A DNA stretch of 64,000 bases, from the NCBI GenBank assembly GCA_949285665.1, contig CASDYC010000001.1, positions 706,107 through 770,106 of the forward strand. Reading direction: 5' to 3'. This stretch comes from an uncultured bacterium (GTDB taxonomy: Bacteria > Bacillota_I > Bacilli_A > RFN20 > CAG-826). The notes under the pieces were generated by a model that worked only from the letters and a program-made list of their open reading frames with translations, searched no databases and had not been told where the DNA came from. Numbering within the stretch: position 1 is the first letter of the stretch; every line of letters begins with the position of its first letter. The translations under genes were made by a program, and so were the position numbers. This document shows, piece after piece, positions 41,829 through 47,740 of the stretch.

Positions 41829-42203
41829 GGGGAAGTACTGGTTTTCGACATAGGTACTGGTCTGGCTTAAATTGCAGTCGAGTGGTGACGTTATCACTAA
41901 AAAATAAATATCTGGCAACAGAAATTACGCTTACGCAGCTGCTTAATCTTAGCCTAATAATATAAGTCGTATTTAATACGAAGTTGCGTGTCTTATTATT
42001 TGTTTATCCTTAGACATTTAATAAGGCAAGTCTAATTAAGGATATATAAGTTTGATGATTATAAAGACTTATGAATATTTATAATCTAGTTGGTATGAAT
42101 TTGGTATGTTTATAATATCAATAAAATTAAAAATATGCCTAAACTGTAGAGATTTTTGTGGGACTACTTGTGGACCGGAGTTCAACTCTCCGCTTCTCCA
42201 CCA
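41829..42203 (+). ncRNA. ssrA: Transfer-messenger RNA (tmRNA)
   Basis: Rescues stalled ribosomes and tags the nascent chain. The 5' end GGGGAAGTACTGGTTTTCGA and the 3' end TTCAACTCTCCGCTTCTCC-ACCA form the tRNA-like domain; acceptor arm GGGGAAG pairs with CTTCTCC with one G-U. The reading frame at 41914-41946 encodes GNRNYAYAAA followed by TAA, a 10-residue proteolysis tag with an Ala-rich end. The genomic CCA is encoded. I placed the ends by pairing the acceptor stem. Confidence 0.95.
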
Positions 42204-42504: not shown

Positions 42505-42636
42505 ACTTCAAATAGCTCCTTTCTAGTAGGCAAAGAAGGTGATTAAATTATAAAACAAAGAAAGAAAGCAAAATGAAAACAGTTAGGTTGCACTGAGTTT
42601 GTCAGTTAACTCATTTATCAAAAAAGAAAAAAACAC

Positions 42637-42668
42637 TTGTCAAAAATGTGCGGGGGGGGGGGTATAAT
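42637..42668 (+). promoter_or_regulatory. Promoter with G11 homopolymer spacer (possible phase switch)
   Basis: TTGTCA (42637-42642) and TATAAT (42663-42668) are separated by 20 nt, of which the last 11 are an unbroken run of G (42652-42662). This is exceptional in such an AT-rich sequence. Slippage by three G would restore the optimal 17-nt spacing. The UDG-like gene starts 5 or 8 nt after the -10 box (ATGs at 42674 and 42677). Confidence 0.6.
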
Positions 42669-42676
42669 TTTTAATG

Positions 42677-43236
42677 ATGAGCGGACCAAAAATTGAGTAT
42701 AGTTTTAATAGCCAATCTAACCTTGATAATAATACCAAAATATTAATTGTTGGCACTTTTACCAGTCCGTTAGGGATATATAATGGCTACTTTTATGGTG
42801 CCCAGCGTAATTGCGTGTATAAAAGATTAGATGAATTATTCAACACTGGAAATATCTTTCAAACTTTAAAGAAAAGATTAATAGAAACAAACAACAAAAA
42901 AGAAGTTGTTGAACAAATAAATAAAGAACTTAGTGAAAGAAATATTGCTTTTTTGATGTCGTTGAAGAATGCAAAAGGAAAATTCCGTGCAGTCCTTATG
43001 ATAAAGATCTTGAAGTTATTAGATTTGCTCTTGATACGTTTAAAGAAAAAAGTTGTTCACTCAAATTTATTATTTTTACTTCTAATACCGCAAAAAAATG
43101 GTTTATAGATAACGGATTTCAAAAATATTACGCTCTAAAAGAAACCAATCATGCTGTTTTAAATATGAGAGGCAAAAACAATATAGAAGATGTAAAAAAA
43201 TTATTATTTTTAAGTTCACTAATAAAGGAGGAATAA
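42677..43236 (+). pseudogene. UDG-superfamily DNA glycosylase-like gene, frameshifted
   Basis: The first half (MSGPKIEYSFNSQ... LIVGTFTSPLGIYNGYFYGA, RNCVYKRLDEL) matches the uracil/hypoxanthine DNA glycosylase superfamily pattern. After IAF at a T6 run (42949-42954) the frame is lost. Reading one base off continues DVVEECKRKIPCSPYDK, then FIIFTSNTAKKWFIDNGFQ, and ends LIKEE at 43236. One extra T (T7) would restore a protein of about 187 residues. This may be a true mutation, slippage or a sequencing error in the homopolymer. A second ATG at 42674 is also possible. Confidence 0.72.
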
Positions 43237-43239
43237 ATT

Positions 43240-44022
43240 ATGGGACTTATTAAAGGACTTATTAAAGGATATTTTAAGTTATTATCTAAGATATTTGGTT
43301 TTAAGCAAGAAGAACAAACACAAAATTATTATTCTAAAAATCCTGAGCTAGTAAGAACCGAAGAACAATTCAATAAAATAGTTGATTCGGTAAAAGCGTA
43401 TCTTGATGAAGACTATGAAAATATATATGGCGTATATGTTGCATATATTTATGAGCAAGATGGCGTTGAGTATAATCCTCGTGTTAATAATGACAATTAT
43501 TATATTTTAAACGATGCCATTACCGCAGCGGTTTTGGATAAAATTTTTGGTAGGCACGATTTATTTGATTTTGGTGATAATTTTACTAAAAATGAATTTC
43601 CTTCGATAATGTGGCATTACTATTACAGTGATTGGTATGTTCTTAAAGGCAACCCTATGCTTCTTTGGATTAAAAATTATAGTGAAAAATACCCAAATAT
43701 TAAAATTACCCATCCGATGCTTTGGAGTGTTAATGCCTTTTTAAAAAACATAGTGAAAGCAAATCAAAAAAAAGATGAAAATGAAGAATCTTGTATGATT
43801 AGAATTCGCAAATTGTTGCTCGATTATGTTAAAGACAATCCGCTTAACAAAATTTTATATGCATCAAATATAAATAAATTTGAGAGTAATTGGACTTTGT
43901 ATAATGATTATATTTTGCCTTATTATCGTTGTTCAAAAAATAACTATAACGAGATATTTTTTGGTAACAATTCTTCTTATGAATTATTATCTCTCCAAGA
44001 TATTCAAAACAATTTATATTAA
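43240..44022 (+). CDS. Hypothetical protein (260 aa) of the ssrA-linked cassette
   Basis: Unrecognised. AAGGAGG lies inside the end of the previous gene, 3 nt past whose stop this one begins, so they are an operon. The N-terminus MGLIKGLIKGYFKLLSKIFG is a short amphipathic, repeat-containing helix that could touch membranes. The rest is acidic and very rich in Tyr, Asn and Trp (for example MWHYYYSDWYVLKGN). No signal peptide or catalytic motif is evident. Codon choice (CGC, GCC, ACC, CCG) differs from flanking native genes. Confidence 0.75.
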   Translation: MGLIKGLIKGYFKLLSKIFGFKQEEQTQNYYSKNPELVRTEEQFNKIVDSVKAYLDEDYENIYGVYVAYIYEQDGVEYNPRVNNDNYYILNDAITAAVLDKIFGRHDLFDFGDNFTKNEFPSIMWHYYYSDWYVLKGNPMLLWIKNYSEKYPNIKITHPMLWSVNAFLKNIVKANQKKDENEESCMIRIRKLLLDYVKDNPLNKILYASNINKFESNWTLYNDYILPYYRCSKNNYNEIFFGNNSSYELLSLQDIQNNLY

Positions 44023-44042
44023 AAATTAGGTTTTATATTGTG

Positions 44043-44891
44043 ATGAATGCAAATAAACAATATTCTACGTCTTTGGTTCTACTAATTATTGCTGGGGTAT
44101 TTCTTTTCGCCGGCATAGTAAATTTGGTTACTATAATCTATATGCGACTAGCAATCATTGATTTTTGTATTGTTTTTATCTTGTTATTGCCTGGTATATA
44201 TTTACATACCAAGTCGAAAAATAATCACGACACCAATATAAAAGCAAAATTATCCGACTTTAAGCCACCGTTTCAAAACGTTTTCAAAAATGAACACGCT
44301 AGTAGTTCGAAAGGAAGAGCGATTCTAAACGCCTTTATTCAGATTGTTTTACCAACAATTGTTGTTTATAGTTTAGTTCTTGTTGACGCTATTATTGTCC
44401 TATTTCTTGTAGGTGCATTGTCATATATTTTAATATTGCCATTAGGAATTTTAGTTTTTCTATTTATTTTTGGTGCGTTCGGTATCATGGGTTTTGCTCA
44501 CGGATCTAAAAACACTCAATATTTAGAGATTGATGGTAAAATAGTAAAAATAAGTAAGCCAGGCCAAAATGGTGGTGCTGGGGTAGCCTTTTTATTATCG
44601 ATGTTTTGTTTCGTTTTTTGTGTTCCCATTTCGATTGTATCCTTCATTTTTAAAATAGTAAAAATAAGCGCTAGTGAGGAATATTGTAAGCAAGTAAATT
44701 CGTATAAAAATAATTCCTATTTGCGTTTTATGCTAGCGTTTATTGTTTCTTCAATTGTGTTATTAATTGCCTTTGTCATTTCTTTTGTTAACATTAATGT
44801 TTTAATGTTTGGCGAATCATTTGAGATTATTTGGCAAATGTTTACTGCTAGATTTAATGAAACTATGAGTGTTATTTCTAATTTCTTTTAG
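44043..44891 (+). CDS. Polytopic membrane protein (282 aa) of the ssrA-linked cassette
   Basis: Unrecognised. I use the ATG at 44043; a GTG just before is also in frame. Hydrophobic segments fall at about 12-32, 36-53, 100-125, 127-150, 182-205 and 232-256. A Lys/His-rich cytoplasmic-looking loop (55-95) and a Gly-rich stretch (KISKPGQNGGAGVAFLL) stand out. It is 20 nt downstream of the 260-aa gene and shares its atypical codon use. Function unknown; it is the last intact gene of the cassette. Confidence 0.75.
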   Translation: MNANKQYSTSLVLLIIAGVFLFAGIVNLVTIIYMRLAIIDFCIVFILLLPGIYLHTKSKNNHDTNIKAKLSDFKPPFQNVFKNEHASSSKGRAILNAFIQIVLPTIVVYSLVLVDAIIVLFLVGALSYILILPLGILVFLFIFGAFGIMGFAHGSKNTQYLEIDGKIVKISKPGQNGGAGVAFLLSMFCFVFCVPISIVSFIFKIVKISASEEYCKQVNSYKNNSYLRFMLAFIVSSIVLLIAFVISFVNINVLMFGESFEIIWQMFTARFNETMSVISNFF

Positions 44892-44956: not shown

Positions 44957-45200
44957 GCTAAAAATAAATAATAACAAGAACAGTAAGGGAATTATTCATG
45001 ACCATATGGAAGGAACAAAAGGTGTGGAAGCAGTTGTGATGTACATCTATCTTGCATTAAAAGGTGTTTCAAAAGAAAAAATAAGAAAGAGAATAGTTAA
45101 TTAACGTTATTCAATAATAGAAACATTAGATTTTGATGATTTAGTTAAACGTCATAAATTTCCTGAAATATGTTAAAAATCTGTACCGTAGCTTTCTATT
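44957..45200 (+). pseudogene. ADP-ribosylglycohydrolase remnant
   Basis: A frame without a usable start reads NNKNSKGIIHDHMEGTKGVE, then AVVMYIYLALKGVSKEKI, a TAA, then RYSIIETLDFDDLVKRHKFP, EIC-stop-KSVP-stop. This follows the C-terminal half of ADP-ribosylglycohydrolases (SHNHPEG.KGA.A.A..IFLA, then C-Q-x-S-V-P-Q-A), with the two Gln positions now TAA and TAG, as expected from C-to-T decay. The N-terminal half is absent. Read by eye; a profile search would confirm. Confidence 0.6.
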
Positions 45201-45470: not shown

Positions 45471-45499
45471 ATTCGTTGCACTGAAAGGAGAATTTATTG

Positions 45500-47740
45500 A
45501 TGAAAAACAAATTATTGTTAGCTATAAATACATCACTTGTTTTATTTTTGCCATTATCTTTAACCTCTTGTGGTGATTCACAATCTACTTTACAAACTTA
45601 TAGTATATCTTTTTACGACGACGATACTTTGATTAGTGAAATATCTACTAGCGGATATGAAATTATTACATTACCAGAGTCTCCAATAAAAGATAATTAT
45701 ACATTTAAGGGATGGTATTTAGATAAAAATACATGGAATGAAAAATTAAGTGAAGATTATTTTATTAATAAAGCACTTACACATGATATTAATAGTTATG
45801 CATATTATGAAGAAAATGTAATTCCTGAACCACAAGAATATACAATTAATTTTTATGTTGATGATGACATTTTTTCTACATTACAGACATCTGGAAACGA
45901 GTTAATTACTCTTCCAGATGCTCCTAAAAAAGAATTATATGAATTTGTTGGTTGGTTTTTTGATAAAGATACATTTAATAATCAATTAAAAGAAGACACA
46001 TATTTAAATAAAAGTTTGGATCAAAATATTAATGTTTATGCCAATTACTTATTTAAAGAAGAACCAGTAAAAGAATTTACAGTTACCTTTGATACTTGTG
46101 GAGGTGATAAGATGGATTCTATTACTACATCTATTATATCTAGTGAACCTTTACCTACAAGATATGGTTATACATTTTTAGGATGGTATTTAGAAAAAAC
46201 TTATGTTAATAAAGTTACGTTCCCATATGAAGTCAAACAAAACATAACTTTATATGCAAAATGGGGAGAAAATCTTCCAACTAGTATTAGTTTTGTTGTA
46301 AGTGCTGAAGGAGTTTTAACTGAAGTAAATGGTATTAGTGAAACAAATAATGTAGTTATTATTCCTAATCAAGTTAATAATATAGAAGTAAAAGAAATTA
46401 AAAAAGAATTATTTTTAAATAATATTTATATTGAAAAGCTTGTAATTCCAGAAACTGTTACAACTTTAGGATATAGAATGTGTTATGGATGCACTAATTT
46501 AAAAGAGGTTAATCTTCCAGATAATATAAGTGTCATTCCAGATTATGCATTTGAAAAATGTACTTTATTAGAAAAAATAAATATTCCACAATCATTAGTT
46601 CAAATTAGAAATGACGCGTTTGCAGAATCTGGAATTAAAGAGTTTATAGCACCAGATTCATTTAAAGAAATTTGGGGATATGCTTTTAAGGATTGTAAAA
46701 ATTTAGAAAAAGTTGATTTAAATAAAACTACAAGTATAGGTGACATGAGCTTTGAGAATTGTACAAAATTAAGTTCAATTGTCTTACCAAATACTTTAGT
46801 TGAACTAGGAACATACGTTTTTAGTGGTTGCACATTACTTAATAATATAAAAATGCCATCAAATCCGATTGAAATAACTAATACTTCTATATATGAATCT
46901 GGATATTATAATGATGCAAAAAATTGGGAAAATGGAATTTTATATGTAGATAATTATTTGATTACTACAAATAATGATTTATTAAATCAACAAAGTATTA
47001 ATGTAAAAGAAGGAACAATTGTTATTGCAATTAATGCGTTTACTAACAATGGTAAAAATTTGAAAAGTATAGTTTTACCAGAAGGCTTAAAAATAATTGG
47101 AAGTTCAGCTTTCTCTAGCTTATATTCTTTAAGTCAAATTAATATTCCATCTAGTGTTATTTCTATTGGAAATAATGCATTTGGTTCAACTGATTTATAT
47201 AAAAATCAATCAAATTGGGAAAATGGAGGTTTTTATATAGATAATTGGTTATTAGCAGTTGATAATGTAAAAATGACTGAATTTACTGTTAAAGAGGGAA
47301 CTGTTGGAGTAAGTGATGGTAAATCTGATACTTCATTGTTCCCAACTAAAGCAACTTCTATAAGTAGCCTTACTCTTCCTAGTACATTAAAATATATAGG
47401 AAATAGAAGTTTTGCCAGATTAAAAATTACTAATTTAGAATTACCAGAAACACTTGAAACAATGAAGGAAGGAGCTTTTATGACTTGTGCTTTCCTAGAA
47501 AGTGTAAATTTAGAAGATTGTATAAATTTAAAATCTATTGGAAATCAAGCTTTCTCTAATTGTGCAATAAAAGAGATCACAATTCCTTCAAATGTCTTAG
47601 AAATGGGAGAATTAATTTTTAATCATAATAGTGTAGATTTATTAGTTCATTGTCAATTTAGTGAAAAACCAGAAGGTTGGAACAATAATTGGGATTATAC
47701 TTATAGTACAAAAGCAAAAATTACTGTTGAATGGAACTAA
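45500..47740 (+). CDS. Surface lipoprotein with InlB B-repeats and BspA-like leucine-rich repeats
   Basis: 746 residues from the ATG at 45500; a TTG one codon earlier is less likely. The signal peptide ends in lipobox LTSC. Three Listeria-Bacteroides (InlB B-type) repeats follow, each ending in a FxGWYxD/E motif (TFKGWYLDK, EFVGWFFDK, TFLGWYLEK). From about 270 onward come LRR_5/BspA-type repeats (LVIPETVTTLGYRMCYGCTN, VNLPDNISVIPDYAFEKC, INIPSSVISIGNNAFGS). Such proteins lie on the outer face and bind host or microbial ligands. GAAAGGAG precedes ATG, and a strong terminator follows. Confidence 0.93.
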   Translation: MKNKLLLAINTSLVLFLPLSLTSCGDSQSTLQTYSISFYDDDTLISEISTSGYEIITLPESPIKDNYTFKGWYLDKNTWNEKLSEDYFINKALTHDINSYAYYEENVIPEPQEYTINFYVDDDIFSTLQTSGNELITLPDAPKKELYEFVGWFFDKDTFNNQLKEDTYLNKSLDQNINVYANYLFKEEPVKEFTVTFDTCGGDKMDSITTSIISSEPLPTRYGYTFLGWYLEKTYVNKVTFPYEVKQNITLYAKWGENLPTSISFVVSAEGVLTEVNGISETNNVVIIPNQVNNIEVKEIKKELFLNNIYIEKLVIPETVTTLGYRMCYGCTNLKEVNLPDNISVIPDYAFEKCTLLEKINIPQSLVQIRNDAFAESGIKEFIAPDSFKEIWGYAFKDCKNLEKVDLNKTTSIGDMSFENCTKLSSIVLPNTLVELGTYVFSGCTLLNNIKMPSNPIEITNTSIYESGYYNDAKNWENGILYVDNYLITTNNDLLNQQSINVKEGTIVIAINAFTNNGKNLKSIVLPEGLKIIGSSAFSSLYSLSQINIPSSVISIGNNAFGSTDLYKNQSNWENGGFYIDNWLLAVDNVKMTEFTVKEGTVGVSDGKSDTSLFPTKATSISSLTLPSTLKYIGNRSFARLKITNLELPETLETMKEGAFMTCAFLESVNLEDCINLKSIGNQAFSNCAIKEITIPSNVLEMGELIFNHNSVDLLVHCQFSEKPEGWNNNWDYTYSTKAKITVEWN

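Follow-up and report, generated by a model that had tools for sequence, protein, structure and literature searches.

The window, that is, the whole 64,000-nt stretch of DNA that was analysed, carries a run of eleven G residues placed between a -35 and a -10 promoter box and directly upstream of three genes. The locus was compared with that of G056, a genome of another genus that has the same genes. The features are as follows.

41829-42203, plus strand: tmRNA (ssrA), a neighbour outside the proposed mechanism
42626-42651, plus strand: 26-nt block identical in two genera, with similarity dropping off upstream of it
42637-42642, plus strand: -35 box TTGTCA (5/6 match to TTGACA), read from the sequence and identical in the G056 orthologue
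42643-42651, plus strand: constant part of the spacer, 9 nt, AAAATGTGC, with C as its final base; the 9-nt offset and the terminal C recur in relatives
42652-42662, plus strand: G11 tract, the proposed length-variable element, read from the sequence; G10 in the G056 orthologue
42663-42668, plus strand: -10 box TATAAT, read from the sequence and abutting the G tract, an abutment that recurs in relatives
42674-43108, plus strand: 5' part of a UDG-superfamily/deoxyinosine-glycosylase-like gene, a 144-aa ORF that ends early (frameshift near 42954)
42955-43236, plus strand: 3' part of the glycosylase-like gene in another frame, from comparison with the G056 homologue
43240-44022, plus strand: 260-aa protein of no reliable family, 82% identical in G056
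44040-44891, plus strand: 283-aa membrane protein with a GTG start (ORF tool), third gene of the conserved operon
45006-45104, plus strand: short remnant, seen on reading the sequence, that matches an 80-aa ORF after the G056 operon with a weak ADP-ribosylglycohydrolase match
45497-47740: 747-aa protein encoded beyond the operon, with BspA-type LRR and Listeria-Bacteroides repeats

The spacer between TTGTCA and TATAAT is 20 nt long. TATAAT is followed by TTTTA and then by ATG codons at 42674 and 42677. As the first ATG lies only 5 nt past the -10 box, an arrangement shared with G056, the transcript must be leaderless or near-leaderless, and a start at 42674 would probably give a leaderless mRNA. 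Two other roles of the tract were considered and rejected. Translational phase variation from the ATG at 42646 across the tract would not work, since G10, G11 and G12 all lack an open frame into the gene, and no hairpin at the tract is better than those of shuffled sequences.

In DNA with 25% G+C the G11 tract is not a chance event: 0.21 matches to G7 or longer are expected in the window, five overlapping ones are present, all belonging to one tract, and none of 100 shuffles reached five. The G runs of seven or more in the entire 1.03-Mb genome are limited to this G11, one G9 and one G7, and both runs of eight or more sit between promoter boxes. The G9 (C1:688101-688109, locus L001, minus strand) lies in a promoter-like 19-nt spacer, TTGAAA-N10-G9-TAAAAT. 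The small membrane ORF that follows it is cut off by a stop in frame after 31 codons. The sole G7 resembles part of a tRNA gene.

The operon and its neighbours

An earlier note on this DNA described the tract, the boxes, the 20-nt spacer and the ATG just after the -10 box, and direct reading of the sequence agrees with it exactly. The whole of its apparent three-gene operon is also present in the other genus. The first gene, there called UDG-like, does resemble the UDG superfamily, but has no intact ORF here: a 1-nt deletion after T6 (window 42949-42955) splits it, whereas the G056 homologue is intact and 188 aa long. The deletion is either a real mutation or an assembly error. The third gene encodes a membrane protein, as had been stated, but one of 283 aa rather than 282 aa when the ORF tool places the start at GTG. 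No sign of the supposed linkage of the cassette to ssrA was seen. The G056 copy sits elsewhere, with an HTH gene and an AIPR gene beside it, and the window was found to contain the tmRNA 3' end only once; integration at ssrA is rejected on the same observations, and the proximity of the tmRNA is incidental.

The intact homologue scores 35.2 bits against TIGR04274 (DNA-deoxyinosine glycosylase), below the equivalog cut-off of 80. Judged by its sequence, the first gene is related to this glycosylase and stands outside that equivalog. Its close relatives within the order are confined to this locus and G056. None of the operon genes had a reliable Pfam match or matched the PADLOC models of known anti-phage defence. 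The structure prediction of the 260-aa protein was unusable (pLDDT 36). The AIPR and HTH genes that adjoin the operon in G056 only hint at a defence neighbourhood.

Recurrence of the promoter module and the genes behind it

The pattern GGGGGGGGTATAAT is found at 23 sites in 15 of 193 related genomes. With TTGNCA nine bases before the tract added, a search of 279 genomes of the order found 21 sites, spread over 10 of them; the reversed control gave 0 in both searches. So as not to look for the expected pattern alone, a survey covered all listed tracts of G8 or longer (at least 69) in nine genomes, which were themselves selected for having a G8-TATAAT match. An exact TTGACA is present 3-14 nt upstream of 35 of the 69 listed tracts; among positions drawn at random from these loci the share is 0.5%. 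Both boxes flank 38 of the 69 (0.36% at random positions), and when the seed sites, 16 by our count, are set aside, both boxes are still found at about 22 of 53 listed tracts. The spacers in this survey range from 14 to 23 nt, and in many cases the tract starts at a fixed distance of 9 nt past the -35 box. A C residue directly precedes 57 of the 69 listed poly-G tracts, promoter and non-promoter tracts alike.

In the collection of named genomes, TTGACA-N8-C-G7-N(0-5)-TATAAT is present in at least 119 stretches, and the architecture takes the form TTGACA-N8-C-G(7-12)-TATAAT. The stretches listed come mostly from uncultured Bacilli and Clostridia of animal guts, and also from Lachnospiraceae, Streptococcus, Gemella, Blautia, Saccharibacteria and others. 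Nine copies of the module occur in a single 1.1-Mb genome (G306). The same module occurs with tracts of up to G18 at the Streptococcus loci L301, L308, L319 and L302, at one of which it precedes a surface protein with a signal peptide. A phage origin of the module was considered and rejected, since among 2.9 million viral contigs the full pattern with the fixed C dropped has no more than two matches, each with G7; G9-TATAAT alone gives 30 matches in viral contigs. Some of the remaining tracts of the nine-genome survey lie inside genes, in part with a broken reading frame. At L062, L061 and L051 the long open frame shifts where the G run lies (in one case 616 aa are followed by 248 aa in another frame), and these tracts are candidates for translational phase variation in the same clade.

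As the target of each promoter we took the nearest ORF downstream that has a ribosome-binding site and encodes 100 aa or more, and its class was assigned by a simple hydropathy and lipobox rule. By this rule 69 of 80 targets (86%) are predicted to be membrane proteins, lipoproteins or secreted proteins, against 133 of 347 other ORFs (38%) of the same loci (Fisher p = 2e-15). Among the targets within the order are lipoproteins that carry Big_2 or LRR domains and acyltransferases of the MBOAT and Acyl_transf_3 families, as well as YfhO, an AraC regulator and an ABC transporter. This bias matches the class of genes that is usually under contingency control. The surface bias is a property of the class of promoters; the locus itself has the glycosylase-like gene, the 260-aa gene and the membrane gene.

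Tract length and the proposed switch

Copies of the promoter that are otherwise nearly the same differ in the number of G residues. Upstream of the three-gene operon in G056, the 26 nt that precede the tract agree fully with those in the window, and beyond this block the similarity is soon lost. The tract there is G10 and not G11. The earlier note had proposed comparing G-run lengths in related genomes, and the lengths do differ. Tandem paralogues within one genome have G8 and G9 with 25 of 26 nt before the tract identical, and G9/G10 and G10/G11 copies with similar flanks are found within single genomes. Two Streptococcus genomes whose downstream DNA agrees at 597 of 600 positions (99.5%) have G14 and GGGGAGGGGGGG (G4AG7), respectively, in the promoter of the same surface protein, and a third has G6 and an altered -35 region there. 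A strain series for a Streptococcus allele was looked for in phage and plasmid records and gave no match. Other orthologous or paralogous pairs are of equal length (G8/G8, G9/G9 and G10/G10), so that tract-length variation is not universal. Variation in length was found for the class, and for the locus itself in a single cross-genus pair.

The recurrence of the module with differing G counts, mostly before genes of surface proteins, makes a slippage-driven random switch very probable. The G11 tract is best described as a slippage-driven phase-variable promoter of the kind known from Neisseria porA, with a probability of about 0.8. The earlier note's candidate switch in the spacer homopolymer finds good support in a recurrence far above that in controls, in conserved flanks around a varying length and in the placement before surface genes. 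Points that speak against the switch are the pairs of equal length, spacers that cluster and do not vary evenly in length, the frameshift in the first gene and the need for a leaderless or near-leaderless transcript. We infer slippage in this population, its effect on expression and the tract length of the ON state.

The switch would operate in the following way. A sigma-A promoter would have the G11 tract as the part of its spacer that varies. When the DNA is replicated, slipped-strand mispairing would add or remove G residues, and each change would move the -35 and -10 boxes nearer together or farther apart and also rotate them relative to each other on the helix. RNA polymerase binding would therefore vary with the length of the tract, being good at some lengths and poor at others, and the population would consist of cells expressing the operon (the glycosylase-like, 260-aa and membrane genes) at different levels. 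As the first gene is frameshifted, the switch in this strain may matter only for the two downstream genes. Related genomes use the TTGACA-N8-C-Gn-TATAAT module many times, chiefly before genes of surface and secreted proteins.

Which length corresponds to which state is less certain. The present tract had been considered three G residues too long and the promoter therefore weak or OFF. Ordinary TTGWCA..TATAAT pairs in the same loci do peak at a spacer of 17 nt, but the spacers of poly-G promoters cluster at 18-19 nt, which makes the assignment of 20 nt to OFF and 17 nt to ON uncertain. Part of the 18-19-nt set was found by a pattern with a fixed offset; the nine-genome survey gives the same mode. 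Either many assemblies have caught a weak state, or the optimum of a poly-G spacer is longer. DNA of poly-G spacers tends to adopt an A-like form with less rise per base.

It is possible, though unlikely, that the cassette has decayed, a relic promoter standing before a pseudogenised operon so that variation of the tract would have no effect in this strain. In favour of decay are the frameshift of the first gene, the in-frame stop that limits the membrane ORF behind the genome's other poly-G tract to 31 aa, and an ADP-ribosylglycohydrolase-like ORF downstream that is shorter than in G056. However, the 260-aa and membrane genes are open, the former at 82% identity to its G056 counterpart, and the promoter block is perfectly conserved. 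Decay of this cassette can be compatible with a phase-variable promoter for the class as a whole.

Still less probable is a static promoter element, in which the tract would be kept for a fixed function, either as a regulator site or because it makes the spacer stiff or A-form-like, and would change little in length. Such a function would agree with the clustering of spacers at 18-19 nt, the frequent start of the tract at 9 nt past the -35 box, the C before most of the listed tracts and the homologous pairs of equal length. It is difficult to reconcile with near-identical copies that differ in the tract and not in the neighbouring sequence, with the 14-23-nt range of spacers in the survey and with the strong bias of the targets to surface genes, the usual contingency class; the same genomes, moreover, carry intragenic poly-G, in some cases with the frame broken at the tract. 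An artefact of assembly or base calling, or a homopolymer that arose by chance, is already disfavoured and very improbable. In its favour are the error-proneness of homopolymers, the draft state of the genome (six contigs) and another 1-nt indel, which disrupts the gene that follows. Against it, the separately assembled G056 also has the tract (G10) and the boxes, and the pattern is found in many assemblies with a reversed control of 0. The exact count of 11 may yet be wrong by one.

If the slippage-driven switch is real, random on/off variation of surface proteins would be common in uncultured gut and animal-associated Firmicutes. Such variation would then probably have been missed, since an assembly gives a single tract length; the switching should be readable straight from metagenomic reads, and the module is fixed and easily searched. 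A wider proposal is made tentatively, at somewhat less than even confidence: that the stereotyped poly-G module is general across uncultured Bacilli, Clostridia, Streptococcus and Saccharibacteria, with many copies per genome serving surface genes, and that here it also moves with and controls a glycosylase-like operon with a possible role in phage defence. To our knowledge, most known cases of phase variation through homopolymers in promoter spacers come from mycoplasmas and a small number of Gram-negative pathogens. No description of the module in Firmicutes was found in the open-access literature; as subscription papers lie outside that scope, this is weak evidence of novelty.

Comparison with known switches

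Slippage switches of other designs are known from related or similarly living bacteria. In Group A Streptococcus, mga switches by poly-C slippage, according to the account in PMC10330708. This is homopolymer slippage in a Firmicute, as proposed here, but its tract lies inside a regulator gene and not in a promoter spacer. The pilus of Bifidobacterium breve is under an ON/OFF switch by replication slippage, as described in PMC9187656. It resembles the present proposal in being a slippage switch of a surface structure in a gut commensal, in a different phylum. The tract of this switch is reportedly located within the gene.

Promoters in which a repeat sets the spacing of elements are closer in design. 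The repeat unit is poly-C in Bordetella and poly-A in Mycoplasma hyorhinis. In the TA repeats of Haemophilus influenzae hifA/hifB and in promoters of surface genes of Bordetella pertussis and M. hyorhinis, changes in repeat length alter the spacing of promoter elements, as summarised in PMC3899988. The likeness to the poly-G promoters lies in a change of spacing by repeat length before surface genes; the repeat units (TA in H. influenzae) and the lineages are different.

The closest parallel is porA of Neisseria meningitidis, in which one G more or one fewer between the -35 and -10 boxes alters transcription (van der Ende et al. 1995, as cited in PMC3899988). Both promoters have a homopolymeric G tract in this position, and porA is a surface protein. 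The effect on expression is demonstrated for porA, whereas for the present locus we infer it. The porA type of switch is known; its stereotyped form in the groups described here is apparently little described. Unlike porA, the arrangement is stereotyped here over many genera and loci, with the tract abutting TATAAT, starting 9 nt after TTGACA and being preceded by C.
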